Position numbers and translations under genes: made by a program. Of a DNA stretch of 62,918 nucleotides, positions 24,784 through 52,928 are shown one piece after another. The notes under the pieces are model-generated. The model was not told the origin of the DNA. It did no database searches and saw nothing but the letters and a program-made list of their open reading frames with translations. The stretch lies in NCBI GenBank assembly GCA_022566355.1, contig JADFJB010000008.1, forward strand, positions 1 through 62,918, in the 5' to 3' direction. Numbering within the stretch: position 1 is the stretch's first letter; each line of letters starts with the position of its first letter. This DNA is from a candidate division KSB1 bacterium (GTDB lineage: Bacteria; Zhuqueibacterota; JdFR-76; DREG01).

Positions 24784-25947
24784 ATGCAGCTTTCTGGGCA
24801 ATCTTTAGAAAAATCATTGTATGTAATCGAATATAAAGGAAGAGACGGGATTGCAATAAAATCTTATTCAAATGAAAAACTTGAATTAAACAGAGTATTC
24901 AAAAATGGTGACAAAGCAAGATGGTACTTAACCCTAGATGAATTAAAATCCATAACCTATTCGATAAAGGATTACGAAAAGCAAAAATGGTTCGAATTAC
25001 TTAAAACTAAAACTGGAAATACCTGGATAACTCTTTCACTCAAACCTACTTTCCGCTTTGATAAAATTAACTTTTCCAGCTCAATTGTACCAATGAGCTT
25101 TACAATTTCGTCAAATGATACAAAATTTCTAGAATATGATGGTCAGGATTTACCATCGTACCCACCTAGTGGTAAATGGACAAACACACAAAAAATAACT
25201 TCCGATCAGCAAGTATTAATCCTTACCAAGAAAGATAAAAACAATTTTTTTGATTTGAAGATTGAACTCCCATGGGGATTTGAATCGGATTCGGGAGAGA
25301 AATCCTGGATTATGAATATATCGACTGAACCGAACAAAGTAAATCAAATTTCCCTTGCTGTTAGTCGTCTCCCAATTATCCCTCTCATATATATTAATTA
25401 TTCGGAGCAATTGCAATCGCACTCAATTCGCAAAATACACCAGGCATTAAAACAATTTGATGGGAAATTATTTATAAGCCTTGGGCATGATGGACAAATT
25501 AGCTATTACGATGAGATTTTTTCATCAAAACCGGAGAACTGGAACAGGTTGAACCACTATCTAAACAGAAATCCGACCATTGGCTACGCCTCAATCCCGA
25601 GAACCGAAATCAATCATTTTGTTAAGCGTATAAACAATATCGAATTTAATTTCTGGGAAAATCATATTGCGTTGCCTATATTGATATTTCCTGTTCAGAA
25701 TTTTCTAAAACAAAGTAGCGGTGAAATATCTCATTGGATAAAATCGATTGATATTTTAGCAAAAAACAAACTAATAAAACAAGAATTTGTAATCATACTC
25801 ATCCTAGATGATTTGAATTCTCTAGAATCGCAAAGATACATGCAAATCCAGGATTATTCGATCCATAAATTAAGTTGGAGATCTGATGAACTAAACCAGA
25901 GATTTGTTCAACTGTTAAAAAATCTAGAAAAGGGGAAAATATTATGA
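24784..25947 (+). CDS. Unrecognised protein, first gene of the vWA/ABC operon
   Basis: A 387-residue protein I cannot assign. It is rich in Lys, Asn and aromatic residues and has beta-rich segments in the first half and a mixed second half. The ATG at 24784 is not convincing: the frame is open upstream and encodes a signal-peptide-like stretch (SVKIFFIFIFSLFF). An ACG at 24709 has AGGA eight nt upstream, exactly where an ATG would be expected, so the start may be mutated, miscalled or non-standard. The 3' end overlaps the next gene by 4 bp, so the two are coupled. It is likely periplasmic. Confidence 0.6.
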   Translation: MQLSGQSLEKSLYVIEYKGRDGIAIKSYSNEKLELNRVFKNGDKARWYLTLDELKSITYSIKDYEKQKWFELLKTKTGNTWITLSLKPTFRFDKINFSSSIVPMSFTISSNDTKFLEYDGQDLPSYPPSGKWTNTQKITSDQQVLILTKKDKNNFFDLKIELPWGFESDSGEKSWIMNISTEPNKVNQISLAVSRLPIIPLIYINYSEQLQSHSIRKIHQALKQFDGKLFISLGHDGQISYYDEIFSSKPENWNRLNHYLNRNPTIGYASIPRTEINHFVKRINNIEFNFWENHIALPILIFPVQNFLKQSSGEISHWIKSIDILAKNKLIKQEFVIILILDDLNSLESQRYMQIQDYSIHKLSWRSDELNQRFVQLLKNLEKGKIL

Positions 25948-28478
25948 TTCTAAAAAACAATAAATGCACGATATATGCAATTTTCATAATCGTATTTTTT
26001 TCAATTGCTTTAATAACCCAAATTCAAGGTCAAACCATTGAAGTGGAAGGCGCTAGTTTACAAACACCCTTGGAAATTCCATACCAATTTTCAAAGGGAG
26101 AAAACATTTGTAGAAATGAGATTCCTGCATCAAGAAGAGTTACTGGATCTGTTTGGGAAATCTTTCCACTGAAAAATGACGTCGCCCTTTATTCTGCTCC
26201 AAATGGGGCTCAACAAATTAACACGGCATCAACTGGGGATCATTTTGTTGTATTTGCCGAGAGGAAAGGTTATTTGCTGCTTGCAGCTGGACCTACCTGG
26301 GGCGAGCAAATTATTGACATGAATTTCAAAGGCTGGGGTAAAAAGAGTGATTTTATTCTTCACCGTATGGCAATAAGAAAAAAGGGCATATGGCGAAAAG
26401 CAATGGTGGTTAATTTCATCCCATCAGAACAGCAAACACAACTTGTAGATCAGGATTTCCAAATAGCGTCTATTTATAATAACCCGGAATGTCAAGGCGA
26501 GCCTATAGAGAAAATCAGGGTATTTCGATTTTTATTCGTTTTTGAAACCAACCCACGTTGCTCAGATCAGCCAAAATCAGTTTTAGTTGGAAATAAACCT
26601 GTACTAAGTAGTAAAGAGGATTTATTGGGTTGGATTCCAATACACCGAATTACGCTCTGGGATACGAGGGAAGCACTCGAAATTAATTTCGATCAAAATG
26701 CACAAGCGAGTAGAGAATCCTTAGCTTTACCGGCTTCCGTGTTTGAAAACTTACAAACCGCTTATTTATATGCCGCTTCAAAAGGACAACATAATAATGA
26801 AGTAATTAGAAAAAATAGGATAAGTACAGAAAATTTCTCCATAAAATACTGGCCACCTGGAATAATCCGATACCCGATTTTAAGACGAATTGACATGAGA
26901 AATTTAAAGAATGACGAAAAGGATGATATTTATGAAATCGGGTTTATTGGTAATACGATTAAACTTGGTAACAACGATGAAGCATTTAAGGGAGAGATAT
27001 CCCGTGAAAGAGCGGCTCAACAACAGCAAGCTCTTGAACTAACTATTAAAGACTTCTCTAAACTGGATATTTTATTTGTCGTTGATGCCACCAGCAGTAT
27101 GGGGCCATACCTTAAAGCAACGGCTAATGCAATTGAGAACGCTTTGCAATCCATTTCAGAACAATATTCTGACGACTGGGATATTCGTTTTTCGGGAGCA
27201 ATATTTCGAGATTACGAAGACGAAAAAAACAACAATTTATTCAATCATCAAGACTTAACTGCTAATCGAGAAGCTGTAACCAAGTTCTTTCGAAATGCAA
27301 AAGATAAAAGTGCAGATATGGATTATCCTGAGGCGGTATTTTACGGTTTAAGAAATGCCATCATTGCAACGCATTTTCGGCCTCGATCCATGCGTTATGT
27401 GGTTCTCATCAGCGATGCAGGCAATCATGAGCCGGATAAACGTGGTTTAAGTTCCGATCGCGTAGCAAAATCTCTGTACGATTATCAATGCCATTTTCTA
27501 TGTATTCGTGTTGCGCCCAATTCCAATTCCGGGAGAGAAGCCGGACCTTTGCTAAAAGCCCAAGTACGCGAATGGATGATTAATAATTCACAACGTGCCC
27601 AGAACGAAATTCAGCAACAAAATGTAAATACCCGGGATCAATTTTCCGGTTACTTATCTTCTCCCCAATTAAGGGATATGGGTGATTTGATGTTCATGGT
27701 CGGTTCACATGTACTTGGAGCATACGTTGTAGCAGATAATTCGGATGAAACTCAGTCCTTTATTGAAAATTACCTGGCGAAGGCTGTTGATATCCACGAT
27801 TTATTTCGTGATGTAACAAGGCTATTAGCAACAGGCGCAAGCATAAGTGAAGCCTTTAATGTTTTACAAAGCAGTGAAACTTCTACAGAAAATGATCCCA
27901 ATTCTCCAAATACTGCAACTCAAGCTCTTATCAAAGAGAATGGAATCGGTGCAATGCAATACGACCAGGTTTGGTTACACCATATTCTCAGCCGAATACC
28001 AAATGCTGATGATTTATTGCAAAGACGTGTAACAATCTACAAACGGGCATTTGTGAACATGTACAATGAAGACTTAAAGGATCCTTTATTCAAGCCCGTT
28101 GTCTTAATGACTGCTTCGAGTTTAATATCGTTGATTAATTTAATTGAAGATTTGGTTGCCAGCGCAGATACCGAAAGGCTATCCGAATCCTGGCGAAAAA
28201 TTCTTGACGCACTTAGTGGTGAAGAAGGAATTCTTAAATCTGTCTCTGAGTATGCACAACAACAGCTTAGCTTACCTGTAAATTCAGAACTCTTAAAACT
28301 TACCCTTCAAGAAATTGATGAGCTGAGTATTGTTAAAACAAGGCAGATGGTTGCCGATATAAATAAAAAGAAGAACATGTTAGAGCAGATTCTCTACGAT
28401 GATTCTTCTAATAAAAAAAGATGGTTTTTAATGAGTGAATTAAAATACTACTGGATTCGAGTAGAAGAATTACCTTAA
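25944..28478 (+). CDS. Exported von Willebrand A protein
   Basis: An 844-residue secreted or periplasmic protein. A signal peptide spans about 1-30 (cleavage near IQGQ). Residues about 65-145 resemble an SH3-like domain. The vWA domain starts at about 374 with DILFVVDATSSMGPY, a MIDAS motif of the DxTxS type, and continues through VVLISDAGNHEP to about 560. The last 280 residues are helical. The vWA resembles those of T6SS PpkA-type proteins. It lies between the unassigned protein and a MacB-like ABC gene, with a 4-bp overlap and a 14-bp gap. Metal-dependent binding to a partner is likely. Confidence 0.8.
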   Translation: MILKNNKCTIYAIFIIVFFSIALITQIQGQTIEVEGASLQTPLEIPYQFSKGENICRNEIPASRRVTGSVWEIFPLKNDVALYSAPNGAQQINTASTGDHFVVFAERKGYLLLAAGPTWGEQIIDMNFKGWGKKSDFILHRMAIRKKGIWRKAMVVNFIPSEQQTQLVDQDFQIASIYNNPECQGEPIEKIRVFRFLFVFETNPRCSDQPKSVLVGNKPVLSSKEDLLGWIPIHRITLWDTREALEINFDQNAQASRESLALPASVFENLQTAYLYAASKGQHNNEVIRKNRISTENFSIKYWPPGIIRYPILRRIDMRNLKNDEKDDIYEIGFIGNTIKLGNNDEAFKGEISRERAAQQQQALELTIKDFSKLDILFVVDATSSMGPYLKATANAIENALQSISEQYSDDWDIRFSGAIFRDYEDEKNNNLFNHQDLTANREAVTKFFRNAKDKSADMDYPEAVFYGLRNAIIATHFRPRSMRYVVLISDAGNHEPDKRGLSSDRVAKSLYDYQCHFLCIRVAPNSNSGREAGPLLKAQVREWMINNSQRAQNEIQQQNVNTRDQFSGYLSSPQLRDMGDLMFMVGSHVLGAYVVADNSDETQSFIENYLAKAVDIHDLFRDVTRLLATGASISEAFNVLQSSETSTENDPNSPNTATQALIKENGIGAMQYDQVWLHHILSRIPNADDLLQRRVTIYKRAFVNMYNEDLKDPLFKPVVLMTASSLISLINLIEDLVASADTERLSESWRKILDALSGEEGILKSVSEYAQQQLSLPVNSELLKLTLQEIDELSIVKTRQMVADINKKKNMLEQILYDDSSNKKRWFLMSELKYYWIRVEELP

Positions 28479-28492
28479 TTTATAGCTATTCT

Positions 28493-31174
28493 ATGGAATT
28501 TGGTATTACAATTGCAAAACTTCAAAAGTCTTACTGGAACAGATCAAACAATATTTGGAATTCTATAACTGCTTTAGATCTTGAAGACGTCTTTATTCCA
28601 TTTGGTAAGACAACAGTTATCCTGGGCAGGTCGGGAAGCGGGAAATCTACCCTATTAAGTATTTTAGGACTTCTAGAACCACCCGATGACTTAAACCAAA
28701 ACGGCCATACAGACCTAAAATCCCCCATTACTTTCAATTTTCCATTTAACTTAGATTCATACGACAAATCAAAATTTGCGATTGAAGAATTTTGGCAAAA
28801 TCAAGAACTTAAAGATCTAATTCTTAGAAAGCATTTTGGATTTGTTTTTCAGGATTCATTTTTATTCCCTGGATTATCGGTTAAACAAAACATTCATTTG
28901 CCCACTTTATTAAATGGACTTTCACAGGAAAAATTTGATGATCTTTGGCAGAAAAGCCTGGATTCCGGCCTATTTGAAGAATTTAAGAATGGCGGTGGTC
29001 CTAAACCTATTCCGATAAATGGAAATTCTAATAAACTTTCATTTATTGAGAGAATTAAAAGCTCAATTAAACATCACCGGGGAGAAGCCACACCTGATAA
29101 ATATTCCGGCGGACAACTGCAGAGATTCTCACTTATTCGGTCAATTCTACATGATCCTTCAATCATTTTTGCCGATGAACCAACGGGTAACCTTGACCCT
29201 AATTCTGCCGATAAAGTTTTTCTCTTTTTAAAAGGATGGCAAAATAATCTTAAAGAAAAAACATTAGTCTTGGTGACTCATGACGTTGAACTTGCCAGGC
29301 GTTATGCAGATCGTATCCTGATTATTGATAATCATCATGGTATTAAAAATACTGATGTGTTTGATGCAAAGTTGAGTAACAAAGCAAATCATACGGTAAA
29401 AAAATGGGATGTCTCGTTAGATCAAATGACAAACTTGATGAGCGAAAACGGCACGGTAGATTCTAAGGGAGAGAAAAAACTTCACAAAGTTTTTTCGAGC
29501 AATCAAAATGAATATGATGGCTTTAAAAAAAGTGACCTGGCAAAAATAATTAAATTCGCATGGTCTTTTAGCCGATGGGATTTTTGGCCGAAAACTCCGA
29601 ATCTAAAATGGACAAGTATAGTCGGGTTGTTTATAACTTCATTATTAGCGTTAACATCATTTCTCATCTTAGGATTTTATCTGGGTTCAAGTAAATACTT
29701 GGAACTTATTCAATCAAATCCTTTTATCCACAGTCTAAATATATCACGACCTTTAACCGACCCTGCTATCGATAAATCTACATTATCCCAAATTGCAAAC
29801 ATCACCGCTACAACAGAAGATCCGGAGTCTTTTTCCCTCGGGAACTCTGGCAACCAACAGAACATCATTTTATCCTATGCAAGTGGTTTTAACAGAAGAT
29901 CCTTATGGGGTACTTTAATTGATCCTGACTTGAAAGAACTTGATCCGGTTCGATTAACCGGGCGCACAATAGATCCGAGTGATCCAGTTATGCAAATTAT
30001 AGAAGATAATTTACTTTTCGGAAGATCGTTTCAGTCTAATAATGATCTTGGTTTGATTGTCTCCAAAGATGCAATGAATAAATTAGGACTCTCGAAGATA
30101 TCTAAAAACGATTCTCCTCGAATTCTCTATTCAAAATATGGTTCCGGGATCGATGCCAGGGTAAGAAAGTTTCCAATTCTTGGGATTTCTGAAAGGCTTC
30201 CCGAACCCGGGGGTGATTTTATTATGTCTAATTATTTCTATGCACAATTGGTCAATCATTATTTTACCCCCACAAGCCTTTCTTCTTTTGAAGTCGGATT
30301 TTTACCCTCAATGCAAGCGGCAGATGATCTATTGTTAAATTTAGAACCAGCAATGAATGAACTGGGTTTACGCGGAGATAGCTTTATACGCGACAATCAA
30401 TTTGTTCTTAAATTCTCTTACATCAATGGAAGGGCAAGGCACGAAGATCTCATTAAAAATCATTTTCATGAATTATTTAAATTAAATCCCGATTTTGAGG
30501 GGAACAATTCGTTTACCCTGTTACCCTTCTTTAGACCAGAAAGATCGATTAGTGAACAAGATACAACAATATTTACTTATGGATCTTTATTCATCAAGGA
30601 ATTTAAGTATGCCCGCGGGTTACGAACTTTTCTGCAAATGAATTTTAAGGCAGATATGAATCTTGGTATGATTGAATCTTTGGGGACTATTCACACAATG
30701 AGGAAAATCATCTCCGGGATTGTCATTGGCATGCTTTTATGTCTTGGTTTTACCGGACTATTCGTTGTCTATTCGGTATTCAGCCAGTTTGTCTCAAGAA
30801 GCGCTAAACAATTTGGTGTCTTAAAAACCATGGGAGTTGATTGGAAAAATTTCGCGTTGATTCACTTTTTCGAAGTACTCATTCTTTTCAGTTGTTCAAT
30901 CTTTATTGGAATATTGGGATCCTTATTCCTTGGTCGTTTATTAGACTCGCAACTGGCTAGTTTCTTTACCGCTTTCCAAGTCAATTATCAGTTTTTTGAA
31001 ATATCATTATTGCATATTTTTATTCTAACGATAATGATGTTTATCACTTATGCAATTGCAGCCGGTTTGGCGGTTAAAAATATATATTTGAAGAGTGCTA
31101 TGGAGTTAATCAAGGATCAAAGGAACTTGAGCCCGCAACAAAAAGTAAACTTATTTAACTGGAAACAAAATTAG
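28493..31174 (+). CDS. MacB-like ABC ATPase-permease fusion
   Basis: An 893-residue protein with an N-terminal ABC ATPase and a C-terminal FtsX/MacB permease. Walker A GRSGSGKST (45-53), Q-loop FVFQDS, signature YSGGQLQR (about 203), Walker B IIFADEPTGNLD and H-loop LVTHD are all intact. The ATPase carries long inserts between Walker A and Q-loop and before the signature. One TM at about 376-400, a large periplasmic domain and three more TMs at about 736-870 match MacB topology. Such transporters use ATP for mechanical work in the periplasm. It is the last gene of the operon and ends 19 bp from the convergent operon. Confidence 0.88.
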   Translation: MEFGITIAKLQKSYWNRSNNIWNSITALDLEDVFIPFGKTTVILGRSGSGKSTLLSILGLLEPPDDLNQNGHTDLKSPITFNFPFNLDSYDKSKFAIEEFWQNQELKDLILRKHFGFVFQDSFLFPGLSVKQNIHLPTLLNGLSQEKFDDLWQKSLDSGLFEEFKNGGGPKPIPINGNSNKLSFIERIKSSIKHHRGEATPDKYSGGQLQRFSLIRSILHDPSIIFADEPTGNLDPNSADKVFLFLKGWQNNLKEKTLVLVTHDVELARRYADRILIIDNHHGIKNTDVFDAKLSNKANHTVKKWDVSLDQMTNLMSENGTVDSKGEKKLHKVFSSNQNEYDGFKKSDLAKIIKFAWSFSRWDFWPKTPNLKWTSIVGLFITSLLALTSFLILGFYLGSSKYLELIQSNPFIHSLNISRPLTDPAIDKSTLSQIANITATTEDPESFSLGNSGNQQNIILSYASGFNRRSLWGTLIDPDLKELDPVRLTGRTIDPSDPVMQIIEDNLLFGRSFQSNNDLGLIVSKDAMNKLGLSKISKNDSPRILYSKYGSGIDARVRKFPILGISERLPEPGGDFIMSNYFYAQLVNHYFTPTSLSSFEVGFLPSMQAADDLLLNLEPAMNELGLRGDSFIRDNQFVLKFSYINGRARHEDLIKNHFHELFKLNPDFEGNNSFTLLPFFRPERSISEQDTTIFTYGSLFIKEFKYARGLRTFLQMNFKADMNLGMIESLGTIHTMRKIISGIVIGMLLCLGFTGLFVVYSVFSQFVSRSAKQFGVLKTMGVDWKNFALIHFFEVLILFSCSIFIGILGSLFLGRLLDSQLASFFTAFQVNYQFFEISLLHIFILTIMMFITYAIAAGLAVKNIYLKSAMELIKDQRNLSPQQKVNLFNWKQN

Positions 31175-31193
31175 TTAGATTGCTACTAAGAAA

Positions 31194-34100
31194 TTAATCC
31201 TGCGGAATCGCAGAAAAACTTTTAACTTGAAATGATTCTCTAAGTCCTATAAACAATCTTGCGGCAGAACCGTAGTTTTCGACACCTAATGCATAAATAC
31301 TTCCTGAAAAAATATCAGAATTATTTGGCCGCAAAATCGTTTCCAGATATTGCCCATCCAGATCGCAACGATAGATTCCATTTCTATCAGCTATAAATAA
31401 ATATGGATTTCTAGAAACGATTTCCGTTTCTCCAATCTCATTCGTAAAACTAACGCCAGTAGCGTCTTCTTCAATATTAATTCTTGTTGGGTACATCAAC
31501 CGTATTTTATCCCCCTCCTCGCGATTCTCATTGTCGCCAAATTTCCCAAAATGATATCTATATTTACCTGTGCTGTCAAAGGAAACAACACGGTTAGCAC
31601 CAAAATCTGTTAAATAAAAATTTCCTTGATTATCTAAACAAATACCTTCCGGTTCCTGTAAAGAGGTCATGTCATAATTACTGAAATCAAATCTAAATAC
31701 CTCATCAGACACAAACCGGCCACCGGATTCGTCATACATTTTTATTCCATTTTTAAGACTGGACTCCACCACATAAAATCTGTTATGAATAGCCGAAAAG
31801 GCAACATCTCTAAAATTTATCTTTCTCGAAAAATCTAACATCAACTCCGAGTTTACCGGAATTTTTTTAATTTCATTACGTATGACTATATTTTTATCCA
31901 ACCTGTGTTCGAATTCAGCATAGTTCGTCGGTTTCCCTGGTTGAGCCATAAGCTGAAATTTGACTTTTTTCGTCATTGGTATGGATATGATTTGCTTTCC
32001 AGGTTTTACAACATCAAACACTTTTTTATACATGTAAGAACCTTGCTGGCGAACAATTAGTTCAACAGTTTCTCCTAACTCCAGAACATCCGATTTAAAT
32101 TTATTTTCTCCGATGCGAAGCAGTTCTACATCATTCAATGTTGCGCGAATTGGGGAATCCGTTCCTTCTCCGGATAGTACAAAAAGTTCCAAGAAAGATG
32201 TTTCTTTTCTTAAAATCTCATTCAGTACGGATGGTAAAGATGTAAGGCTGCCCTTTTTGAAAATAGAAGTATTGGGTGCTTGGGCAAAAGCATAAAGAGA
32301 TTTCTTTGGTAAGGAAAATTTCTTCAATAGATCCAAGCTCTGTTGCAACCGTTGAAAACGAAGGAATTTTGGATCTGCGAGTTGTTCATACGAATTTTCT
32401 TGCCCACTTAAAAGATTGTCAGGGAATTCCACATTTCGATAGTTTAACCCTGAAAGTTCCGAACTACCGTCTGCTCGATTTACACAAAGTCTAATGGCGG
32501 CTTCGGCATTTTCAAACCAAAATCTTCCATCCTGGTTGGTCCTGGTTTTATCTTTGATCACATCAAAGCATAACTTGGCTGCATCTCCGAATCCCTTCGC
32601 TCGAAGTATTTCGGCAAAATAAAATAGAGAACGTAAACTTCTTTTTTCGTTAATTACTCCTTTCAAAACATTTTTTGCCGCATCATATTTTTCCGCAAAA
32701 AATAAACTCCTGCCACGGATATAATTTGCTTCATCTACATATGTGCCCCTCACTTTTGTTAAAATATCAGCTGATTTGGAAAAAAGATTCTTTTTATCAT
32801 CTTCATCCCCTTGAATTTCTGCTTCTAGAGAATTTGCAATACCTTCAAAAAAATTGGTTTCATTGGTCATCTCAGCCTGGGTAATGGCAAAAATTCGTTG
32901 AAGTTGTTTTAAGTAATTCAAACGATTTATGCCAGTAACCGAAGCAGCTTTGGGAAGTAAGAATTGGATCATCTCTACCGCTTTTTCCACACCCCTGCTA
33001 CGCAGGATTTCACTTCTAATATCTTCCCCAAGTTCAAGTTGGGTCAAATTTAAAAGAAGATCTTTTTGTTGCGATATCTCAGAATTTTTCGGGTCGAAGT
33101 TCTCGAGTGATAATTTTAATTCTCTTAAGCTTGCCTTGTTACCGCGGTTTGCATCGAGATATAGTATACTGCGCCAATATTGTGCTTGATCTAAAAGAGC
33201 AGAAATCCTTGGTTCAGTTCTTTCGATTGATCTTAGGATAAACGATTGAAAATTGTTAATTCCCGTATTTCTATTAGCTATAAACTGAACGGCTCCTAGC
33301 CAAAAATAAGATTCGGAATAATCGGAAAGACTACTGGAAGGTAATGCCTGGAAATAAAAACTTTGCCGGTCATTTTGAGAAAGACTGAAAAAATTATCAT
33401 TGTCACCAGGTTGCGTAGTGGTATGATCCAAGTTACCTTGTCTGAATTTCAATTCAAGCCCAAATTCATTAGAAGATACTTGATTGTAATTGTCAATGGC
33501 ATCCAATCTGTTTTGCGGATTAAAAGTCATTAAAAACTGATTTAAATTCACCATTCCCTGAGTATAAAATAGAAACTCTAGAAAAGCATTTCGCTGGCTA
33601 CTTTTAAACTTGCTAAGGATCGAAGGATAATTGATTGCAGATGCAAGATTCAAAGCGGTTTCCCTGCTTGAATTTCCTTTACCGTCGTCCACAATTTGCG
33701 AAAACATGGGTTCCGGAACTGATTGATAAACCTTCAATAATTCATATTTTACATCAGTTATTCTAATTTCCGTTACAAGTTTCATTAAGTCATCAGAATC
33801 TAGCTGCAACACTTTTTTATAATAGGTGTTTGCCTCTCGTAGGTTGTCTATAGTTTTATTAATTTTATCCGTAGATATCTCAGGCCAAAAAGCATCAAAC
33901 CTTCTTAAAATTGCTTCCCGAAAACGGGACTCACCAGCCAGAAAATTTGCCTGCAAAATTAAGGAGTCCGGAGCATTCGAATCAATTCTTATGAAGCTAT
34001 TGAATGCCACATTCAACAGATCAGCGGGTCTTTCACCCGTTTCTGCACGACGAAAGAAACACCATCCGGATTTTAATTGAGAACCAAAATAAACTTTTGG

Positions 34101-34424: not shown

Positions 34425-34467
34425 AATAAATTCACTTATTTGAATTTAAATAACTTGGAAAAAACTA

Positions 34468-35061: not shown

Positions 35062-35075
35062 AATTATTTCTTATG

Positions 35076-35696: not shown

Positions 35697-35699
35697 AAT

Positions 35700-36299: not shown

Positions 36300-36318
36300 A
36301 TTATAAACTTATTAAGTT

Positions 36319-37686: not shown

Positions 37687-37701
37687 ATCCTCGTCTCCTA
37701 T

Positions 37702-39675: not shown

Positions 39676-40727
39676 TTCATAACCGCAATTTTACGCATAC
39701 GAACTTCTTTTCCAACTTTTACTACACAAATATATCCGCCATTGGCAACCATCTCACCTTTACCATTTCGACCGTCCCATACAATTTGGTTGTAAGCTAT
39801 TCCTGTAGGAGCATTTAATTCTCTAACCAAATTACCAAACAGATCATAAATTTTCAATTCGATCTCAGTAGCTCCGTCAGATTTAATCACCAAAGTAGTC
39901 ACTTCAGAATTTGGGTTGAATGGATTTGGATAATTAGAAATAAGACCTAATGGGTCCAGATCGACAATAATTTCATCTGAAGAAATCAAACTTACATTTT
40001 CCGCTTGATCCAATACCCGGACAAATATTCTTTTGATACCATTTCCCCCGGTTAAATCGAACTGAACACTGGCATTATAATCACCAGTATTCAATGACGA
40101 GACATCATATCTTTCAAAAGTAGAAAATGTTGAATCCTGGGTTATTTGGATTTCCTTTACAAGGCCCAAATCTGTAGCCTGAATGTTAACAGTCACATCC
40201 TCTCTATTTGTAAACGAGGTTGCTCCTTCCGGAACGTTCGCTTTGATTTCAATGCTAATTAATTGCGGTATAAGCTTATCAATTATAATTGACGTAGAAT
40301 CTAGCTTGAACTGGCCTGCTGAATTTCTCGCAGCTACATATAATTTACCTTCGAAGAAGGATTCTGCTGATATAAATTCATATTGAGTAATAAATATTTC
40401 TCCTGTTTGAACAGGAGTCCAATTTGTTAAACCTGCAACAGATTCTGAAAAAGCAACTTCTTGAAAGATACCACTGGTTTCATTTATTTGTAAAGTAATT
40501 GTGTTAGATGAGGAAAATAAAGAATCGGTTGGGTCATCCACATCAAATAATACACTATGGATTCTTAAAGGCGCTGAAAAAAGTATCACATCATTCAAAA
40601 CAGCGCTGAAATTTCGAGCGCTGTCTTCTACGACAATCCAACAATTAATTCTATTGCCCGTAATAAACTGCTCCTGGGTTTCATAAGGAAAACTAAATTG
40701 TCCGTTCGAATGATCAATTCGGTCCAT
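39672..40727 (-). CDS. C-terminal part of a frameshifted giant T9SS cargo protein
   Basis: These 351 codons continue the upstream giant gene in another frame. Translated upstream of the ATG, the frame reads TLPGGDQPSTSGRAQNDAF and joins the giant protein near the 4-A run at 40814-40817 (minus strand), where one extra A would restore a single gene. The fragment has Ig-like beta domains and ends in a T9SS type A sorting domain (YPNPFNPNSEV, then WDGRNGKGEMVANGGY). Translated as is, the sorting domain would be made without its passenger. It is most likely part of one gene of about 1,840 codons. Confidence 0.8.
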   Translation of the reverse strand: MDRIDHSNGQFSFPYETQEQFITGNRINCWIVVEDSARNFSAVLNDVILFSAPLRIHSVLFDVDDPTDSLFSSSNTITLQINETSGIFQEVAFSESVAGLTNWTPVQTGEIFITQYEFISAESFFEGKLYVAARNSAGQFKLDSTSIIIDKLIPQLISIEIKANVPEGATSFTNREDVTVNIQATDLGLVKEIQITQDSTFSTFERYDVSSLNTGDYNASVQFDLTGGNGIKRIFVRVLDQAENVSLISSDEIIVDLDPLGLISNYPNPFNPNSEVTTLVIKSDGATEIELKIYDLFGNLVRELNAPTGIAYNQIVWDGRNGKGEMVANGGYICVVKVGKEVRMRKIAVMK

Positions 40728-43700
40728 AAAAAAATTGAATGATTGACTATTATTTGTGAAGGCATCGTTTTGAGCACGCCCAGATGTAGATGGCTGGTCA
40801 CCACCCGGAAGAGTTTTCCGGGAAGTATGTCGTTTGTTGAAAATGTCACCTCAATTGTCAAGTCATCGGTAAGTGTGGAATCCCCTGTCCCAATAGTCGA
40901 AACATCAGATAAAATAAACCTGGAAATTCCAGGAGGAGATGTATCCAAAATGATCGAATCGCTATATTCAACGCTCCAATTTCCGGATGAATCACGAACA
41001 GAAGCAAAAACTGCTTTAACTTCATTTAATGCGGTATTGAACGTATAATTTGTAATGGTTTGAAAAGTCGAATAAAAAATTGCCTCACTACCCTGCTCTC
41101 TTAATAATGCAGCTGAAATTGGTTCTGATTGGTTATCAAATCGAATTTGAACTGTTGTGTCATTTACAAATTCATAAATCGTATCGCTTACAGTGATGGC
41201 TTGAAAGAGGATCACTTGATCTAAAGTAGGTTTCTCTTTATCTACGAATATGGATGCATTGATTACATTACTTGTATCTGAAATATTTGGACCAATCAGT
41301 TTTACGTATAAATTCGTTTCCCCATTTGCATTATTAAAAGCGAAAACAAAGGAAACAGTGGAATCGTTTATCGTTGTCCAATCATCAAATTCCATCTTGT
41401 CTACAGAAAAATCGAGATCACTTCCAGTTACTATCCTCTTTAAAACCCCATCAAAAGTCAAAACAGCCCTAATCGTGTCATTGTCGCTCCAGCCTGGATG
41501 TGCGGCATTTTGCATATCGGTTTGAGGAGTTATATCCTCTAAAACCAAATTGGTCGGTTGAACGATTTCAATAACTGTGATCTGAGCGTTAAGAACATTA
41601 CCCCAATTACCCGCTTTATCACGTACTTGAGCAAAGACAGTATGTTCACCTAAATTTGGCAAGAGATCAATTTGAAAACTATCCGTAATTTCAGTTACTT
41701 CTGGCAGCATAAATACCTGCACATTTTCTGCTGGGAATTGAATATCCTCACTAAATCGAATTCGATCCAGGAAAACGACCTTTGATATAGTTGTATCATC
41801 TGCTGCATTAAAATTAATGTTAACTTGAAATTCAGATGAAAATGGGCTGTCAAAAGAAAGTGAATTTAGAAATGGCAATTGTCGATCCAGGAAAACATCC
41901 ATATTTTGAGGCAAACTCCAATTTCCAGCTTTATCCCGAATCCTGCCATTTAATTCAATCTGGCCATCAGTTGTGGTTTTTAAAAAATAAGTCGTGTCAT
42001 TTGAAAACGTATTGTATAAGACGCTATCCAAACCGGATTCCCATATTTGAGCTTTGGCAATTCCACTTTCTGGAGTATTCAAGAGAACATTAATATCTCG
42101 GGAATTTGTATAAAGAAATGTACTATCTCCATCTGAAAGCACTCGATAAAATGAAATATCATCCAAGATCGGTCTAACTTTATCTATTTCAATGGAAGCA
42201 GTAATAACCTTACTTGTGTCAATTTCATTAGGACCAATTAGTTTTACATATAAATCAGTTAAGCCGGATTCATCCCCAAAATCATATAGAATTGAAACAG
42301 TTGAATCATCAATCACAGTCCAAGCATCGTAATCCTGTTTACCATCTAAAAATTCAGAATCTTTCGCTGCTACAATTCTTTCCAAAACACCTTTATGGGT
42401 TAGAATTGCACGTACCGTATCACTATTACTCCAACCTTGTTGGGCAGCATCTTGGATATTCGTTTGGGTGGTGACATCCACAAGGACTAAGTTGTCGGGT
42501 TGAACTATATCTACCACTATTATGGAAGTGTTGAGGATATTACCCCAATTACCGGCACGATCTCTAACTTGTGCAAAAACCGTATGTTCTCCAAGAACTT
42601 GAGATAGATCAATCTGAAAACTGTCTGCATTCTTCACCAAATTTGGAAGATCAAATACCTGCACATTGTTAGCAGGAAATTGATTGTCTTCGCTAAAACG
42701 AATTCGATCCAGAAGACCAACTCCGGAAAATGCGGTGTCATCTTCTGCATCATAATTGATGTTTACTTGAAATTCAGATGAAAATGGGCTGTCAAAAGAA
42801 AGTACATTTAGTTTGGGTAAACGACGATCGAAAAAAGCATCGGTATTTTGAATAACACTCCAATTACCTGCTTGATCACGAATACTTGCATTTAATTCTA
42901 TTTGTCCATCGTCTAAAATTTGTAAAGAATATGTAGTATCCGTTGCAAAGCCTTCGTAAAGAACAGAATCCAGACCGGTTTCCCAAAATACCATTTTCAC
43001 AATTTCAGTTTCCGGGGTGTTTAATCGCACTCGAATGTTGCGAGAATTGGAATAAGAATATGTTGTATCACCCGGACTCAAAACACGGTAAACCGAAATT
43101 TGGTTCAAGACCGGCTCAACCGTATCGATTATAATCGAATCTATTACAACATTGCTGGTATCCGTATCTTGTGGACCAATACCACGAATAAATAAAGTCT
43201 TTAGGCCATCATCTCCTGAAAAATTATATTCAAACTGAATTGTTGTATCGGTCCCTGCAACCGAAATTACATTCCAAGGCGCGACAAGTTGGGAAAAAGA
43301 GGAGAAGGATGCATCGTTAGCCAAGTGTAATTTCCTTAGAGTACTTGTGTAGGTCAATTCTACACTTACAACCATACTATCTGAAAAGCCAGTTAAAGCT
43401 CCTAAATAATCATCATCCGGATCTGTTAAATCTGATATATCCATTTGTAGCAGGTTTACGACATTCACAAGCTTAACAGAATCCGTAATAGCATTGCTTA
43501 AATTTCCAGCTTTGTCCCTAACTTGTGCTCTGAATTGATGGACGCCTAATTGGTTAGGTATTTCCAAATTAAGCGGTGATATGAACTGGTTATCTTCAGG
43601 CAGGGCTGTCCGGATGATCAAAGTATCATTTCGCCAAATATAGAGGGTGTCTAAAGTGAAATCATCGCTTGCCTCAATATTCGCATCAATATTCGTCACC

Positions 43701-45199
43701 GCTGTGAGGAAAAGCGGAATATCAAATTGTATTAGTAAAGGAGGATTCGGGTCGAATAGTATTGAATCGGATTTTGGGAAACTTGAATTTGCAGCGCTAT
43801 CTGTAACGCTTACAAATACTTCCTTCGATCCAATCGGATTTGATAATTCATAAAGGCCCGAAAGCGCCCCGGTCTCGAAGGAAAAACTTGAATCATTCAC
43901 AATAAAACCCGAATCTTCGGCTAATCTTATGGTTTCAAGACCAGATTGATAACCATCCTTAGAAACATCTCCAGCGCCAAATATTTGGTATGATACCGTA
44001 GTCTTTTTTGTCCATCCCGGTTTTGCAACTGTTTTCGGATCACCGGGATCAGACATTTCGCTGATTGCAATACTATCTACTTCGGGTAAGGATGTATCTA
44101 TTTTTACAAAGGGTAAATTTGTTTGCTTCGGTAATCCATCGTTTTCCACATTTTGAGCCGTATCCGAGACTATAGTATAAAATTCATAAAATCCGTCTTG
44201 ACCAGCTACAAAATTAAATGCCCCATCTAATTCCAAAGGAAGGGTAGGAAGTTGAACTGTTTGAAAGAGCGAATCTTTGTAAGTATACGATCCATTTGGA
44301 GTTACTTTATAGTTCACAAGTAAACGTATTTTATTTGCCCCACTACCCTGGTAGTCATCGTGTCCCACAAAAATGTCATCCACATGATACTGAATTTGGA
44401 CAGATACACTTTTGAAAAATTGATTAAGCGAAGATGTTATCTGGGAGGACGGTTTAAAAGTATCCACAAACAATTGTTTAAGCGCAGGTGTTGCTGCACT
44501 AACTGTTATCATATTACCCTCTTCCCCTGCGAAGGGTTGATCCGGTCGATGGTCCCGAGCCCAAGCCGTATCCTGGGCAATAATTAGAAACTCATATTCC
44601 CCGTCACCGAGAGAATCAGGAACTAGAAAAGTAAAACTATCGGAAAATGGATTTCCAGGGGAAGCTACGACTGGTGGCGAATATTCCGTAGAATCTATTA
44701 GACGCCAATCTTCATTACTATTGTGTAATGGTCTATAATAAAATACTGTTTTTTTAATACTTTGAGAAACAGAATCAACCACTGAAAATGGAATTGCAAA
44801 ACTTGAACTATTAGCAAAATTGCCATCAAAAAGTATGGTTACGATTGGAGTTGTATTGTCCTGGGTTGAAAAGACGATATTTGAGAGACCCTCAAATAAT
44901 ACCTGGTATTGATAGGTCTTACCGTCAGCTAGCCCACCAATGGTTGCCGAGAATTGTCCAGGGTCGCCGGTAGATGCTAATGTATCATAATCCGAAGCAG
45001 CAAACTCTTTAAAAAGAAATGTTTTAGCTCCGGAATCCGGTGTGGTAAACACAATATTAGATGTCCCCATTGTTACAAGTGGTTCGGGGATCATCTGTAG
45101 CGCTTGAGTCTTTAAGATTGTTGGCGTTTGGGAAAACGCCGGAAATATTTGGCTAACCGATATCAGGATTGCATTTAGAATTACTATGCGCCATTTCAT
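40628..45199 (-). CDS. Giant secreted Ig-repeat protein (N-terminal part, frameshifted)
   Basis: A 1,523-codon frame that starts with a signal peptide (to about residue 24) and runs through many Ig/bacterial beta-sandwich repeats. A unit of about 314 residues is repeated in tandem (see 41210-43099), with motifs such as YRVLSPGD, LNTPE, FDSPFSSEFQVNIN and GEHTVFAQVRD. The last 65 residues or so are out-of-frame sequence after a one-base loss near 40814. The intended product is a surface fibre or adhesin secreted by T9SS. The gene follows another giant cargo gene by 12 bp. Confidence 0.8.
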   Translation of the reverse strand: MKWRIVILNAILISVSQIFPAFSQTPTILKTQALQMIPEPLVTMGTSNIVFTTPDSGAKTFLFKEFAASDYDTLASTGDPGQFSATIGGLADGKTYQYQVLFEGLSNIVFSTQDNTTPIVTILFDGNFANSSSFAIPFSVVDSVSQSIKKTVFYYRPLHNSNEDWRLIDSTEYSPPVVASPGNPFSDSFTFLVPDSLGDGEYEFLIIAQDTAWARDHRPDQPFAGEEGNMITVSAATPALKQLFVDTFKPSSQITSSLNQFFKSVSVQIQYHVDDIFVGHDDYQGSGANKIRLLVNYKVTPNGSYTYKDSLFQTVQLPTLPLELDGAFNFVAGQDGFYEFYTIVSDTAQNVENDGLPKQTNLPFVKIDTSLPEVDSIAISEMSDPGDPKTVAKPGWTKKTTVSYQIFGAGDVSKDGYQSGLETIRLAEDSGFIVNDSSFSFETGALSGLYELSNPIGSKEVFVSVTDSAANSSFPKSDSILFDPNPPLLIQFDIPLFLTAVTNIDANIEASDDFTLDTLYIWRNDTLIIRTALPEDNQFISPLNLEIPNQLGVHQFRAQVRDKAGNLSNAITDSVKLVNVVNLLQMDISDLTDPDDDYLGALTGFSDSMVVSVELTYTSTLRKLHLANDASFSSFSQLVAPWNVISVAGTDTTIQFEYNFSGDDGLKTLFIRGIGPQDTDTSNVVIDSIIIDTVEPVLNQISVYRVLSPGDTTYSYSNSRNIRVRLNTPETEIVKMVFWETGLDSVLYEGFATDTTYSLQILDDGQIELNASIRDQAGNWSVIQNTDAFFDRRLPKLNVLSFDSPFSSEFQVNINYDAEDDTAFSGVGLLDRIRFSEDNQFPANNVQVFDLPNLVKNADSFQIDLSQVLGEHTVFAQVRDRAGNWGNILNTSIIVVDIVQPDNLVLVDVTTQTNIQDAAQQGWSNSDTVRAILTHKGVLERIVAAKDSEFLDGKQDYDAWTVIDDSTVSILYDFGDESGLTDLYVKLIGPNEIDTSKVITASIEIDKVRPILDDISFYRVLSDGDSTFLYTNSRDINVLLNTPESGIAKAQIWESGLDSVLYNTFSNDTTYFLKTTTDGQIELNGRIRDKAGNWSLPQNMDVFLDRQLPFLNSLSFDSPFSSEFQVNINFNAADDTTISKVVFLDRIRFSEDIQFPAENVQVFMLPEVTEITDSFQIDLLPNLGEHTVFAQVRDKAGNWGNVLNAQITVIEIVQPTNLVLEDITPQTDMQNAAHPGWSDNDTIRAVLTFDGVLKRIVTGSDLDFSVDKMEFDDWTTINDSTVSFVFAFNNANGETNLYVKLIGPNISDTSNVINASIFVDKEKPTLDQVILFQAITVSDTIYEFVNDTTVQIRFDNQSEPISAALLREQGSEAIFYSTFQTITNYTFNTALNEVKAVFASVRDSSGNWSVEYSDSIILDTSPPGISRFILSDVSTIGTGDSTLTDDLTIEVTFSTNDILPGKLFRVVTSHLHLGVLKTMPSQIIVNHSIFLWTELIIRTDNLVFLMKPRSSLLRAIELIVGLS
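41210..43099. repeat. Two tandem coding repeats of about 942-945 bp
   Basis: Corresponding Ile codons of the YR-L-motif lie at 43097-43099, 42155-42157 and 41210-41212 (spacing 942 and 945 bp). Two full units lie between them and a diverged third unit begins at the last. A 39-bp stretch near 41824 and 42766 is identical at the DNA level, so the duplication is fairly recent or kept similar. Confidence 0.88.
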
Positions 45200-45211
45200 T
45201 CATTAGCCTAA

Positions 45212-48200
45212 CTATTTAAGAAATAGACACTTTTTAACCTTTTGAAATTCAGAAGTAGTAATTTTATACAAATAAACTCCCGATGCAACTAAATTATTTG
45301 AATCGTTTCTGCCATCCCAAATAATCCTGTAATTACCTGCATCTTGGTGGTGGTCGATTAACGTTTTTATTTTCTTACCTGCAAGGTTATAAATTGATAT
45401 TTCCACTTGCGTTGATCTTGGCAAATCATATTCAATCGTTGTTTCCGGATTGAATGGATTCGGATAATTTTGTCGTAATGCAAACGTGGACGGAATTCCT
45501 ACAATTTCTTCAACATCTGTTGTTGTGTTATTACCGCCGCCAACCTGATTAGATGGCAATAATTCAAAAAAGTTTGACCAACCGGATTCGAAAATATCTC
45601 CTTTAATTGCAAACATTCGGAAAAACACAGTTGTATCCGGGTTGAAAATACGTTCTATTTTTTTAGTAATTATATCAGGATCGTTTGGATTTGCTGTTAT
45701 TATTTCTCTATTACCTGGATTATCACGTAAATCAAAAAGGAAAAAAGATTTTTGATTAGCGAAAACCAAAAAATATTTATCCGCAGCTTGAACTTTGGAC
45801 CAGGTGACACTCACATTATTTGTAATACTGTCCCGCTCAACCGATATCAGCTCCGGCGGGCTAAAAAATGTGAATGGTTTAATTTCACCTGAATCGTTGA
45901 TATTATCTGCAAAATCCCTTGGAACAATTCTAAAAAATAACGGCTGAGTAAAAAACTCATCTAAAATTTCAAATTCTTTTAGTAAGGCCGTCGAATCTCC
46001 TCCAGGAATATTTGTTATTTTCGCAACTATAGACTCGTTAACATCGTTCGATTGGGATTGGTTACCATTAGTCATTCCGGATTGGTTACCATTAATCATT
46101 TTAAAAATTTGGATTTCATTATCTCGCAACCCAGCAAGGTCATCAGTGGATTTCGACCATGAAAAATTAATATCTACTAAAGTTATTGCGGTTGATGTAT
46201 CATTTGATGAAGTTATCGTAAAATCTAAGCTTGTGGGCGACGGCAGTGTGTTGTCCAGTATCAATTCATCCACACCATCTAATTCCGCTGAAGATGGATA
46301 ATCTGGGCTATTACCAAACCGATCAAATCCCATTATTTTAGCAAATACAGATTTTCCTTCAAAAACATTAAATCTATTCGGGTTAGTAAGATCATTCGTA
46401 GAAGTGTTATAAAATTGATCGATATTTGTCAACAAATTTCTTCTTAGTTCAATGATTTCAGTGAATTGCTTAAAATCCGGACGATTTGTAAAATCCGGAT
46501 TGTTGGATAAAAATACTTGTACTGATTCAGCTCCTCGCGTGTCTCCAAACTCCGCTATCCGCTCTGTACCATTTTCTTCGAAAAGCCATAACCATTCAAC
46601 ACGAAGAGAATCTTTTGTATTTATATTAAAATATTTTTTCCCTGTTGCTGGATTGGCAACATGCAAACCATTGAATTTTGGAATAAATACTCTGTCTGTG
46701 AAATTTTTAACGTTACTTTTAGCGTTAGCAGTATCTGCTCCGGCATTTCCAGCAGGCACAAATCGTGGTGGATCATTTACTTTCTTTTCAAACGGAATTA
46801 CCTGGTAAACATAATCGGCATTGGGCGTTAAACCTGTTCGATCCATATACATTAAATTTTCATAAGCGGGGTCTCCCGGAAAAAAATCCTGTTCAAAGGT
46901 CTCTGACGAGTTATTAATTTGTACTCGAATTACCCTAAAAAATCCTACTAGCTCTCGTGAATTATTATCCCAAAAATTATTATCAAAATAGAACTCCCAA
47001 GAAACGAAAATCCCGGTAGTATCTGTTGGTTGGGCTTGGGTAAGCAATATATCATTAGTTGGAATTATGCTTTTACCCGTATCAGTACATCTTTGATTTG
47101 ACAAAGCTGATGAGTCTAGATTTGAGGATTGTAGTTCCACAGCTCGAACGATTGAACAATATTCAGGTCCAGGATCTACTTGAAATATAACCATTTTTTT
47201 GCCTATAACAAATTCCTCTCTGAAAAGTGTGCCATCTCGAAAAAGCTTTATATCAAAGCGCGTTAAATCTAGTGGAACAAAGCTGGAATCCGAGAATTCC
47301 GGGAATGACCAGATGATTTTGATGTCATCCGAATTAAATGACATACTTGTAATTTGTGGAGCAATATTGCAATAATCCTCATCTGTTGCCGCACTTGCTT
47401 CGGTTTTGTTTCCTAGTAAATCTGAGGGTTCAACTTTGTATTCGTAGTGTTGAAAAGCGATTAGGAAACTTCCATCTGCGTTAATGTATGGATCGGTAAA
47501 CGATGTGTCTGATGTAACACCCAATGATATAAACGTTGCAATTTTTGAAGTTTTGGAAAGACTATTTCCGTTTGGATTAACTTCCTGTCGAAAAATCTCA
47601 TACTCTACCGGCAGCAAATCATCTGCATTTGTCCAATTTAAAAACATGTTTCCGTTTGGAGATGGATCATTATTAACACTTAAGGATATAGATCCGGGTG
47701 CAGTACTATCTTTTATAATTTCGAGAGTGTTTGAATTTGGACTTATAATTCCATTGGCAAATTGAACATTTGCAAATATTTGATTAGGTCCTTCTGCTAA
47801 TTGAACTACCGCCTCTAAAGCTTTCGGGTCTACTACGATTGTTTGCCCATTAACTGTTAACGTCATTCCTTCAACGTCTTTGGTATCAAAGTCAGTCCAA
47901 TTAACAATAACAGCGTTTTTGGTTGTGTATAGATCATTGTTGAATAACGTAAATCCATTAGCAAATGCGATTTCAGGCGCAAGTGGTGCACGGGCACAAA
48001 CTTCCCTTAAAGAATCATTGAAATCATTCTTATTCCCCACATTGTCTTCTGCACTAATTCTATAGCAAACTGTAGTGCTAGTATTTATATTAGCAAAGGT
48101 ATCGGGGTAAGATTGTACTAAACCATCCGTTGAATTTACTATTGCAATTGGTTTAAATTCTCCATCCTCTCCAATTTTTCGATGGATCGTGTAAGCTTTG

Positions 48201-49858
48201 ACACCACTCACTGAATCCCCTGCTGCTTCCCAATCCAATCGAATAAAACCTCCTCCTGGTACACTTGAATCTAGCTTTACGAAAATATTTAAATTGGAAA
48301 TATCACCAGGAGGAAATACATCCTGAAACGCCCCAATAAACCTTTCCTCTGAGCTAGACCTTGAAAATTCAGATCGATTTCCGGCCTTGTCTCTGAATTG
48401 GGCTCGATACTTAAAAAAGTGGCCATGAATAAACGAATCATCATTTGTGCCGCTATTCGTAAAATCAAAATTAAAGAATAGGAGTCCACCATTAAATTGA
48501 TCTACCGGAATCCACGGTGATATCCAGGTATCAAAAAATTGAACTCCGGGTTGCCATTCCGCATCAAAAAATCTGGATTTATCCCTTACAGCTTGAAAAC
48601 GCACAAAATCTACACTGGCCAAATCTTCGAACCCAGGTTTACCTTTAGGATTGACTAAATAGACCGTATTTGATGTTCCCTTTTTGGACCAGGGTTTTTC
48701 ATTTGAACTTTGAGCCGGAAATGGTGCATGGGGTTCCGGTGGAACAAAATCAAAACCAAATCCTTGCTCCCAGAAAAATGTTGGAGGAGGTGAAGTAGTT
48801 GCATCTGGCACAAATGGTCCAAGCTCATTTCCATCACCAACATTAAAGCCCGCGTCAAAAGCAGCAACTTTATAAAAGAAGGTTTCCCCTTCAATCAATC
48901 CCCAGTCACGCTCATCCTGGAAATGAAAGTCGTCTTCCGGGGCATCTTGCGAGACAAAAACCGAATCAATAGCAACAAAGCTTCCCATACCCATTCGTCG
49001 AAAAATAACAAATCCTCTCACAAAGCTGGTTGCATCTTCGACTATCTGCCAAAACAAGTCGACTGTAGCGTTAGGTCCTTCCATTCCGGAAGAACTGCCT
49101 AAAAAGTCAGGAGGTATTGCATCTTGAATACTAATAACTGTAGTAGAATTTACAGAAGTACTATCTTCTTTGAAGCCTTTAATGAAATATCCATATTCAA
49201 CTTCATGTTGAAGATTTTCAAAGGTGGTTTGTACTACACCTGCATTTGATGATTTTCTAAGACTAGTAAACTGTTTTCTAACGTTTCCTGAATTGGTAGG
49301 ATCAATCAAAGATACATATTGGTCAAATAGATTTTTATTCTCAATCCACGAGATTGTATTTGATGTCCCCCCTGAAAATTTTGGTTCATTAACAATGCAA
49401 GGTGCAACTCTTAAATCTACTATGAAAGTATCTGAATATACTTTTCCATTTGCCTGAATACATCCTGCAATTAACTTAAATATATATTGAGCTCCATCAT
49501 CAATCTGAGGTTTAAAGAGAATTGAACCAGAAATTTGGTTAGCAGGTCCGGCAATTCTCTGATCTTGCCAGCGTGTAAAAAATTCCGGTTTATCCGGTAT
49601 TATTAAAAACAATGAGTCACAATCTTCACTAAAATCAACCTCAATCTTAATCAATTCTTCTTCTTCTACGTTCATTGTTAAAGGTACTATATATCTAAGA
49701 AGAACCTTAAAGCTATTTCCAAATCCACCAGTGGTAGTAAAATCAATGTTAACCTGCGCAATGACTGAATTACTTACAAAGATGGTCATTAATACCAAAA
49801 GATATTTTAAATGTGATGAGGTTTTAAAAATAGATTCCCAAAATTTGGTGATCATCAC
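45212..49858 (-). CDS. Giant FN3-repeat T9SS cargo protein
   Basis: A 1,548-residue secreted protein with a signal peptide (cleavage near VIAQ-VN), several FN3-type domains, and a C-terminal T9SS type A sorting domain (ALRQNYPNPFNPETTIEYDL, later WDGRNDSNNLVASGVYLYK). It is the first gene of the long minus-strand operon. GGAGGG lies 6 nt before the ATG. Such proteins are exported by T9SS and tethered to the surface or released. The many FN3 domains suggest an extended adhesin or matrix protein. Its ligand is unknown. Confidence 0.88.
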   Translation of the reverse strand: MMITKFWESIFKTSSHLKYLLVLMTIFVSNSVIAQVNIDFTTTGGFGNSFKVLLRYIVPLTMNVEEEELIKIEVDFSEDCDSLFLIIPDKPEFFTRWQDQRIAGPANQISGSILFKPQIDDGAQYIFKLIAGCIQANGKVYSDTFIVDLRVAPCIVNEPKFSGGTSNTISWIENKNLFDQYVSLIDPTNSGNVRKQFTSLRKSSNAGVVQTTFENLQHEVEYGYFIKGFKEDSTSVNSTTVISIQDAIPPDFLGSSSGMEGPNATVDLFWQIVEDATSFVRGFVIFRRMGMGSFVAIDSVFVSQDAPEDDFHFQDERDWGLIEGETFFYKVAAFDAGFNVGDGNELGPFVPDATTSPPPTFFWEQGFGFDFVPPEPHAPFPAQSSNEKPWSKKGTSNTVYLVNPKGKPGFEDLASVDFVRFQAVRDKSRFFDAEWQPGVQFFDTWISPWIPVDQFNGGLLFFNFDFTNSGTNDDSFIHGHFFKYRAQFRDKAGNRSEFSRSSSEERFIGAFQDVFPPGDISNLNIFVKLDSSVPGGGFIRLDWEAAGDSVSGVKAYTIHRKIGEDGEFKPIAIVNSTDGLVQSYPDTFANINTSTTVCYRISAEDNVGNKNDFNDSLREVCARAPLAPEIAFANGFTLFNNDLYTTKNAVIVNWTDFDTKDVEGMTLTVNGQTIVVDPKALEAVVQLAEGPNQIFANVQFANGIISPNSNTLEIIKDSTAPGSISLSVNNDPSPNGNMFLNWTNADDLLPVEYEIFRQEVNPNGNSLSKTSKIATFISLGVTSDTSFTDPYINADGSFLIAFQHYEYKVEPSDLLGNKTEASAATDEDYCNIAPQITSMSFNSDDIKIIWSFPEFSDSSFVPLDLTRFDIKLFRDGTLFREEFVIGKKMVIFQVDPGPEYCSIVRAVELQSSNLDSSALSNQRCTDTGKSIIPTNDILLTQAQPTDTTGIFVSWEFYFDNNFWDNNSRELVGFFRVIRVQINNSSETFEQDFFPGDPAYENLMYMDRTGLTPNADYVYQVIPFEKKVNDPPRFVPAGNAGADTANAKSNVKNFTDRVFIPKFNGLHVANPATGKKYFNINTKDSLRVEWLWLFEENGTERIAEFGDTRGAESVQVFLSNNPDFTNRPDFKQFTEIIELRRNLLTNIDQFYNTSTNDLTNPNRFNVFEGKSVFAKIMGFDRFGNSPDYPSSAELDGVDELILDNTLPSPTSLDFTITSSNDTSTAITLVDINFSWSKSTDDLAGLRDNEIQIFKMINGNQSGMTNGNQSQSNDVNESIVAKITNIPGGDSTALLKEFEILDEFFTQPLFFRIVPRDFADNINDSGEIKPFTFFSPPELISVERDSITNNVSVTWSKVQAADKYFLVFANQKSFFLFDLRDNPGNREIITANPNDPDIITKKIERIFNPDTTVFFRMFAIKGDIFESGWSNFFELLPSNQVGGGNNTTTDVEEIVGIPSTFALRQNYPNPFNPETTIEYDLPRSTQVEISIYNLAGKKIKTLIDHHQDAGNYRIIWDGRNDSNNLVASGVYLYKITTSEFQKVKKCLFLK

Positions 49859-50577: not shown

Positions 50578-50620
50578 TGTTTATTTTTATGATTCTTCAA
50601 ATTCTTCAAATGAGGTATAG

Positions 50621-52066: not shown

Positions 52067-52120
52067 CTAAAAGCTCTATCGAAATAACAGAATTTTGCGA
52101 AGAAAAAAGGAAGAAAATAA

Positions 52121-52882: not shown

Positions 52883-52928
52883 TTAGCACATTAATTCTAA
52901 TTTTTTTCGAAAACAGAAACAAATTAAT

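Follow-up and report, generated by a model that had tools for sequence, protein, structure and literature searches.

A conserved eight-gene operon in a candidate division KSB1 bacterium may encode a proton-driven envelope machine with outer parts linked to type IX secretion

Introduction

Do the two convergent gene runs on a contig of a candidate division KSB1 bacterium (assembly GCA_022566355.1, contig JADFJB010000008.1) encode one envelope machine and, if they do not, which genes belong together and what might they do? The window analyzed here is the entire contig (62,918 nucleotides, G000:C8), taken from an assembly of 4.62 Mb with a completeness of 98.5%; G000 is the window genome, G001 onward are its relatives, and GIANT and CTDP are two surface proteins of the locus. 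The original prediction merged both runs into a single system of ten genes, driven by protons and ATP, while its own list adds up to eleven. As described below, the minus-strand operon alone behaves as a conserved unit, and we consider it somewhat probable that this operon encodes one trans-envelope machine, driven by the proton-motive force (PMF), that moves, displays or assembles long surface proteins.

Layout and conservation of the minus-strand operon

The map of open reading frames (ORFs), read together with their translations, bears out the predicted layout: the two runs converge with 19 bp between their ends (31174/31194), the minus operon spans 31194-49858 with intergenic gaps of at most 43 bp, and the plus run consists of 24784-25947, 25944-28478 and 28493-31174. 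Protein families were assigned by hidden Markov model (HMM) scans of the window translations against Pfam and NCBIfam, which recovered the proposed ExbB-type channel, two ExbDs, PorV-like barrel, tetratricopeptide repeat (TPR)/NHL protein, vWA protein and MacB-like protein. The minus operon comprises the following features, several of which carry domains of the type IX secretion system (T9SS):

45212-49858, minus strand: GIANT, 1548 amino acids (aa), secreted FN3/Ig chain with a signal segment at about residue 20 and a T9SS type A C-terminal domain (CTD) at residues 1465-1543 (TIGR04183 6e-9, PF18962, PF13860)
40628-45199, minus strand: first part of CTDP, Big/Ig repeats and signal peptide (PF19077 7e-13); frame broken near 40800, a frame switch relative to the G001 and G002 homologues
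39672-40727, minus strand: second part of CTDP in the other frame, last Ig repeats and a PorU/PorZ-like T9SS CTD (NF033707 3.9e-9, TIGR04183 1.3e-6, NF052228 4.8e-6)
37702-39675, minus strand: PorV/PorQ-family outer-membrane barrel (about 44-354) followed by a TPR solenoid (about 360-600) (NF033709 3.3e-18 over 44-354; TPR matches)
36319-37686, minus strand: FN3-ExbB, with signal peptide, periplasmic FN3, transmembrane (TM) segment, cytoplasmic part and MotA/ExbB domain at 311-445 (PF01618 5.6e-23, PF00041 3e-5)
35700-36299, minus strand: ExbD 1 (PF02472 1.7e-9; TM aspartate D19)
35076-35696, minus strand: ExbD 2 (PF02472 6e-12; TM aspartate D20)
34468-35061, minus strand: short TonB-like transducer, 197 aa, one TM helix and a TonB-type CTD at about 90-150 (family profile, AlphaFold2 (AF2) model, Foldseek)
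31194-34424, minus strand: TPR-Ig-NHL protein, 1076 aa, with signal peptide, helical solenoid (about 30-705), beta domain (about 740-840) and NHL propeller (about 870-1076) (AF2 model, NHL profile matches)

A single-sequence scan of the genome contigs with FN3-ExbB, whose reach is limited to close relatives, returned one locus only. At a threshold of 1e-20 FN3-ExbB was found in 24 of the 59 relatives, and comparison of the flanks, among loci whose contigs extend far enough, revealed that the gene order GIANT-CTDP-PorV/TPR-[small FN3-barrel]-ExbB-ExbD-ExbD-TonB-TPR/NHL is constant, on one strand, in about 20 loci; in a few copies (G029, G031, G040) simple ORF picking left missing or shadowed ORFs, and others hit contig ends. 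By profile search, the TPR-NHL marker is present in 26 of the 82 genomes of the phylum, distributed over 24 of 59 genera and 12 families. The pairwise protein identities of the operon members are correlated with each other (r 0.50-0.91), and at most one in 500 label permutations equaled the observed value. Such correlated distances show co-inheritance and not physical contact. These comparisons support the set formed by ExbB, the double ExbD, TonB, PorV-TPR, TPR-NHL and the giant CTD proteins as a conserved, co-inherited unit.

Chance could have placed an ordinary ExbBD-TonB set next to ordinary T9SS cargo, since T9SS cargo, like PorV paralogues and ExbBD sets, is common and the window genome holds seven MotA/ExbB genes; with an eight-gene order shared by many families, and with distances that co-vary, we regard such a coincidence as extremely improbable.

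The conserved layout admits some variation. In at least eight loci (e.g., L043:294-1397 and L044:7917-9050) a gene of about 370 aa lies between PorV-TPR and ExbB; its product has an Ig/FN3-like start followed by a likely outer-membrane barrel with a terminal aromatic residue, and it matched no Pfam family. A looser version, in which two long ExbB genes follow one another and the layout is otherwise unchanged, occurs at G023:C8:29358-39635 and at G050:C37; G013 has it in addition to the single-ExbB version (second copy at G013:C33:364255-379984), while G011 (G011:C67) shows the first part of the double-ExbB version before its contig ends. At G049:C5:1984568-1985193 the TonB gene of the operon is split into two ORFs of 66 and 142 aa. 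Two copies of the operon are present in each of G002 and G004. In the window the region upstream of the machine genes holds an SUF Fe-S operon (50266-57591), and the second copy in G002 has suf-type genes next to it (G002:C14:92897-94635), so the two G002 copies may stem from a local duplication.

The predicted inner-membrane motor and its transducer

The residues expected of a proton channel are well preserved: the ExbB TM threonines T376 and T416 occur in 27 of 27 homologues and E411 in 24 of 27, and the TM aspartate is present in all 23 homologues of ExbD 1 (D19) and all 25 of ExbD 2 (D20). We take these positions to be the equivalents of T148, T181 and E176 in Escherichia coli ExbB and of D25 in its ExbD. 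The family assignments and invariant channel residues argue that FN3-ExbB and the two different ExbDs form an inner-membrane motor, and we infer that protons flow through it. Because the operon is a conserved unit and its proton-motor residues are intact, it is reasonable to suppose that it encodes an envelope machine that is driven by protons and acts on surface proteins.

The TonB-like arm of the original prediction gave no Pfam match as a single sequence; in its favor, both the family profile and the structure model match TonB CTDs best. When a profile of 20 homologues was searched against the PDB, all seven sequences with E<1 were TonB (best 0.014); the AF2 model, with a predicted local distance difference test (pLDDT) value of 88, had the E. 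coli TonB CTD as its top Foldseek match (E 0.01), and one homologue matches PF03544. The long proline-rich linker that spans the periplasm is absent, and as so short a TonB cannot span the periplasm on its own, a periplasmic partner would be required. The TPR-Ig-NHL protein was modeled at pLDDT 88.5 as a solenoid up to about residue 705, a beta domain and then a propeller; it has a signal peptide with no obvious lipobox, and Foldseek returned generic TPR and NHL folds only, with no system-specific match. Elsewhere in the window there is a conventional TonB gene (20845-21498; PF03544, 65 bits), unlinked to the conserved operon, and, where the contig ends, a TonB-dependent receptor that has both plug and barrel (60514-62703).

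An ExbB-ExbD-TonB set is the classical power source of import, and the operon could accordingly serve uptake, with either the small FN3 barrel or the PorV-like one as the route of entry and the giants binding the substrate, as FN3/Ig chains are able to bind polymers. In Fibrobacter succinogenes a TonB/ExbB/ExbD set has been proposed as a cellodextrin importer, and FSU_2400-2403 are raised on cellulose (PMC6851124). We nevertheless consider uptake rather unlikely: the conserved operon contains no plug-bearing TonB receptor, PorV-type proteins deal with cargo of the T9SS, so short a TonB would require a partner in the periplasm, and the two ExbDs are unlike each other.

Outer-membrane barrel, surface proteins and type IX secretion context

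All 20 homologues of the PorV-TPR barrel match PorV_fam and PorVQ2 (best 1.6e-27), the window copy scoring 66 bits against a PorV_fam cut-off of 90. A type A CTD was matched in 13 of 14 GIANT homologues, of which most complete copies measure about 1440-1600 aa. CTDP homologues vary in length between about 357 and 1850 aa; the T9SS_PorZ model matches their CTDs in 14 of 17 cases and the general type A model in 3. PorU and PorZ retain their CTDs after secretion (PMC11285876) and sit on PorV/PorQ-type barrels in the attachment complex (PMC8754138); by analogy, given its PorZ-like CTD, CTDP may therefore stay on its PorV/Q-type barrel in the way of PorZ and PorU.

The claim of two giant T9SS-type surface proteins held as far as the T9SS CTDs are concerned, and failed in that the second protein is not intact in this genome. 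ORFs 40628-45199 and 39672-40727, which overlap but are read in different frames, are two halves of one gene: the CTDP homologues of G001 and G002 read continuously across the junction, where the window has the end in LFRV in one frame and AQND onward in another, and reading of the sequence (window 40700-40900) indicates about 20 additional bases, a number not divisible by three, between the halves. Lacking a signal peptide at its start, the second ORF is not a separate surface protein. Mutation and assembly error are both possible causes of the frameshift in this metagenome-assembled genome.

Such proteins would be delivered by the genome's own T9SS. SprA was detected in 56 of the 59 relatives and in the window genome (PF14349, E 1e-41). 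GldL (TIGR03513) and GldM (PF12081, GldM_1st) gave no match above cut-off in 59 genomes, in searches that had no positive control and that divergent motors could escape, so that their absence from the phylum is suggestive. The retention of SprA without recognizable GldL/GldM raises the question of the T9SS power source in this phylum.

One answer would be that the operon itself is the T9SS motor of the phylum, ExbB/ExbD/TonB taking the place of GldL/GldM and powering general export, which would suit both this SprA and GldL/GldM distribution and the presence of PorV/Q-type and PorZ-CTD proteins in the operon. However, the operon is missing from more than half of the genomes that have SprA and is therefore unlikely to be a general T9SS motor, and a divergent GldL/GldM motor may have been missed; we hold this explanation to be distinctly unlikely.

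The convergent plus-strand operon

The plus run consists of three genes:

24784-25947, plus strand: protein of no recognized family (no Pfam family, no NCBIfam match above cut-off)
25944-28478, plus strand: secreted TssR-like vWA protein (PF20782, TssR_VWA, 5e-7, above cut-off; PF20781, TssR_C, weak, in the correct order)
28493-31174, plus strand: MacB-like ABC + FtsX protein (PF00005 5e-18, PF02687 4e-8)

That these genes and the minus operon form one machine, driven by both protons and ATP, is suggested by their adjacency across the 19-bp gap and by the fact that both sets reach the envelope; both are also present in G001, on contigs that end inside the genes and so give no reading of adjacency there. 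The distribution of the genes speaks against it. The vWA protein was found in 2 of 82 genomes, compared with 26 of 82 for the TPR-NHL marker, and the MacB-like protein, among the window genome and its 59 relatives, only in G000 and G001, so that the carriers of both are the window genome and one genome of the same family. None of the plus-operon genes was found in the readable flanks of other copies of the minus operon. In G002, of the same family, a homologue of the gene at 23420-24121 is likewise located downstream of the operon, but the matching position between the two is occupied by other genes. The co-occurrence anticipated by the original prediction was thus seen for the minus-run genes and not for the vWA and MacB-like genes; the prediction had itself taken separation of the operons in most relatives as an argument against a single system, and such separation is what was found. 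A ten-gene machine is very unlikely on these counts, and the term ATP-driven was dropped because the operon of vWA, MacB-like and unrecognized genes lacks support as part of the machine. On its distribution among the genomes, the plus operon is a rare, separate and unrelated neighbor.

TssR is a component of the membrane complex of the type VI secretion system (T6SS) subtype iii (PMC10781749). The plus operon was rejected as a T6SSiii since TssC is absent: no VipB/TssC was detected in G000 or G001, while the E. coli positive control was. A TssR-like vWA protein with a MacB-like ABC partner, in a genome without VipB/TssC, would be a TssR relative outside the T6SS; a PDB sequence search with it gave no match. 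The protein encoded at 24784-25947 had been called exported, which is unproven, as no hydrophobic signal segment follows its ATG. An in-frame hydrophobic stretch upstream of that ATG (window 24654-24784) contains no ATG, GTG or TTG; it may encode a signal peptide read from a rare start codon, or else reflect an error in the frame. An anti-phage defense operon was considered and rejected, the PADLOC matches being generic ABC, AAA and MotA ones only, and no Rfam match was found in the window.

Discussion

How might the minus operon work as one machine? Proton flow through ExbB/ExbD would cause a conformational or rotary change, which, judging from domain types and topology, the short TonB-type transducer would pass as force to the TPR-Ig-propeller protein, to the TPR tail of the PorV/Q barrel, or to both. 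The barrel would hold CTDP by its CTD, which is PorZ-like and of a kind normally retained, and together with CTDP the GIANT of about 1500 aa, which the genome's SprA-type T9SS would deliver. Force would reach the long surface proteins through the barrel, and the output would be mechanical. The most likely surface function is adhesion or surface movement. Supposing that such a machine exists, surface movement or active adhesion is plausible at somewhat less than even chances, and assembly or display, on the one hand, and uptake or another role, on the other, are each entertained more tentatively.

Several points weigh against this interpretation. Contact between the parts is suggested by gene order, and correlated distances are also expected from shared descent. 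Statistical support for the TonB fold is modest (E about 0.01, TM-score of about 0.5 to the target), and the TM helix of the TonB-like protein lacks the His known in TonB/TolA. The members are known from their genes only, none having a known function or phenotype, and an import role is possible, though the conserved operon holds no TonB-dependent receptor or SusC gene.

No paper describing the operon, including the combination of ExbB, PorV and FN3, was found in the open-license literature, which offered only analogues. One of the closest is AglRQS-Glt of Myxococcus, PMF-driven as is proposed here, with which the operon shares one ExbB-type channel, two unlike ExbDs and a TonB-like arm, as well as TPR proteins and outer-membrane or surface parts. 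It differs in its PorV/Q-type barrel, T9SS CTD proteins, NHL propeller protein, FN3 on ExbB and short TonB, and the likeness is one of layout and proposed working principle. Close homologues of the AglR/Q/S and GltC/D/E/G genes are reported from one member of the Fibrobacteres (PMC3169522). The T9SS (PorLM/GldLM, PorE/PorW, PorU-PorV-PorQ-PorZ) likewise combines a proton motor, a periplasmic TPR/propeller protein, PorV/Q barrels and CTD proteins, but the motor here is MotA/ExbB, ExbD and TonB instead of GldL/GldM. PorE consists of TPR, propeller, CRD fold and OmpA (PMC7192894), whereas the TPR-NHL protein lacks an OmpA domain and has another domain order.

Two further loci are similar. In F. 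succinogenes, FSU_2396-2403 (PMC6851124) have TPR proteins, ExbB, two ExbDs and TonB at neighboring locus tags and are raised on cellulose; compared by description, they differ in their OmpA and fibro-slime partners, with no PorV-TPR reported. The TPR-TolQ-TolR-TolR-vWA clusters of the PVC (Planctomycetes-Verrucomicrobia-Chlamydiae) group (PMC12204202), proposed as a novel force-transduction machine, also have a TPR gene, one TolQ and two unlike TolRs; their transducer is a vWA protein in place of the TonB type, and they contain no T9SS parts. The best reading, by comparison with these systems, is a putative proton-driven force machine of the envelope whose outer parts are linked to the T9SS; it would work in the manner of AglRQS-Glt or T9SS motors and is assigned to neither. 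More speculatively, it may represent a distinct machine class in which FN3-ExbB, double ExbD and short TonB act on T9SS-delivered giants via the PorV/Q-TPR barrel. Its task would then be to drive gliding or active adhesion, or to serve specifically as a T9SS motor, in a phylum whose genomes gave no GldL/GldM match above cut-off.

If this is true, an inner-membrane proton motor would have a third means of acting outside the cell, in addition to AglRQS-Glt and GldLM, in a machine found by gene order and in carriers known here as genome assemblies only. Such a machine would bear on how the T9SS works in a phylum that has SprA but no recognizable GldL/GldM, and the conserved eight-gene set provides a concrete list of candidates for complex prediction and genetics.

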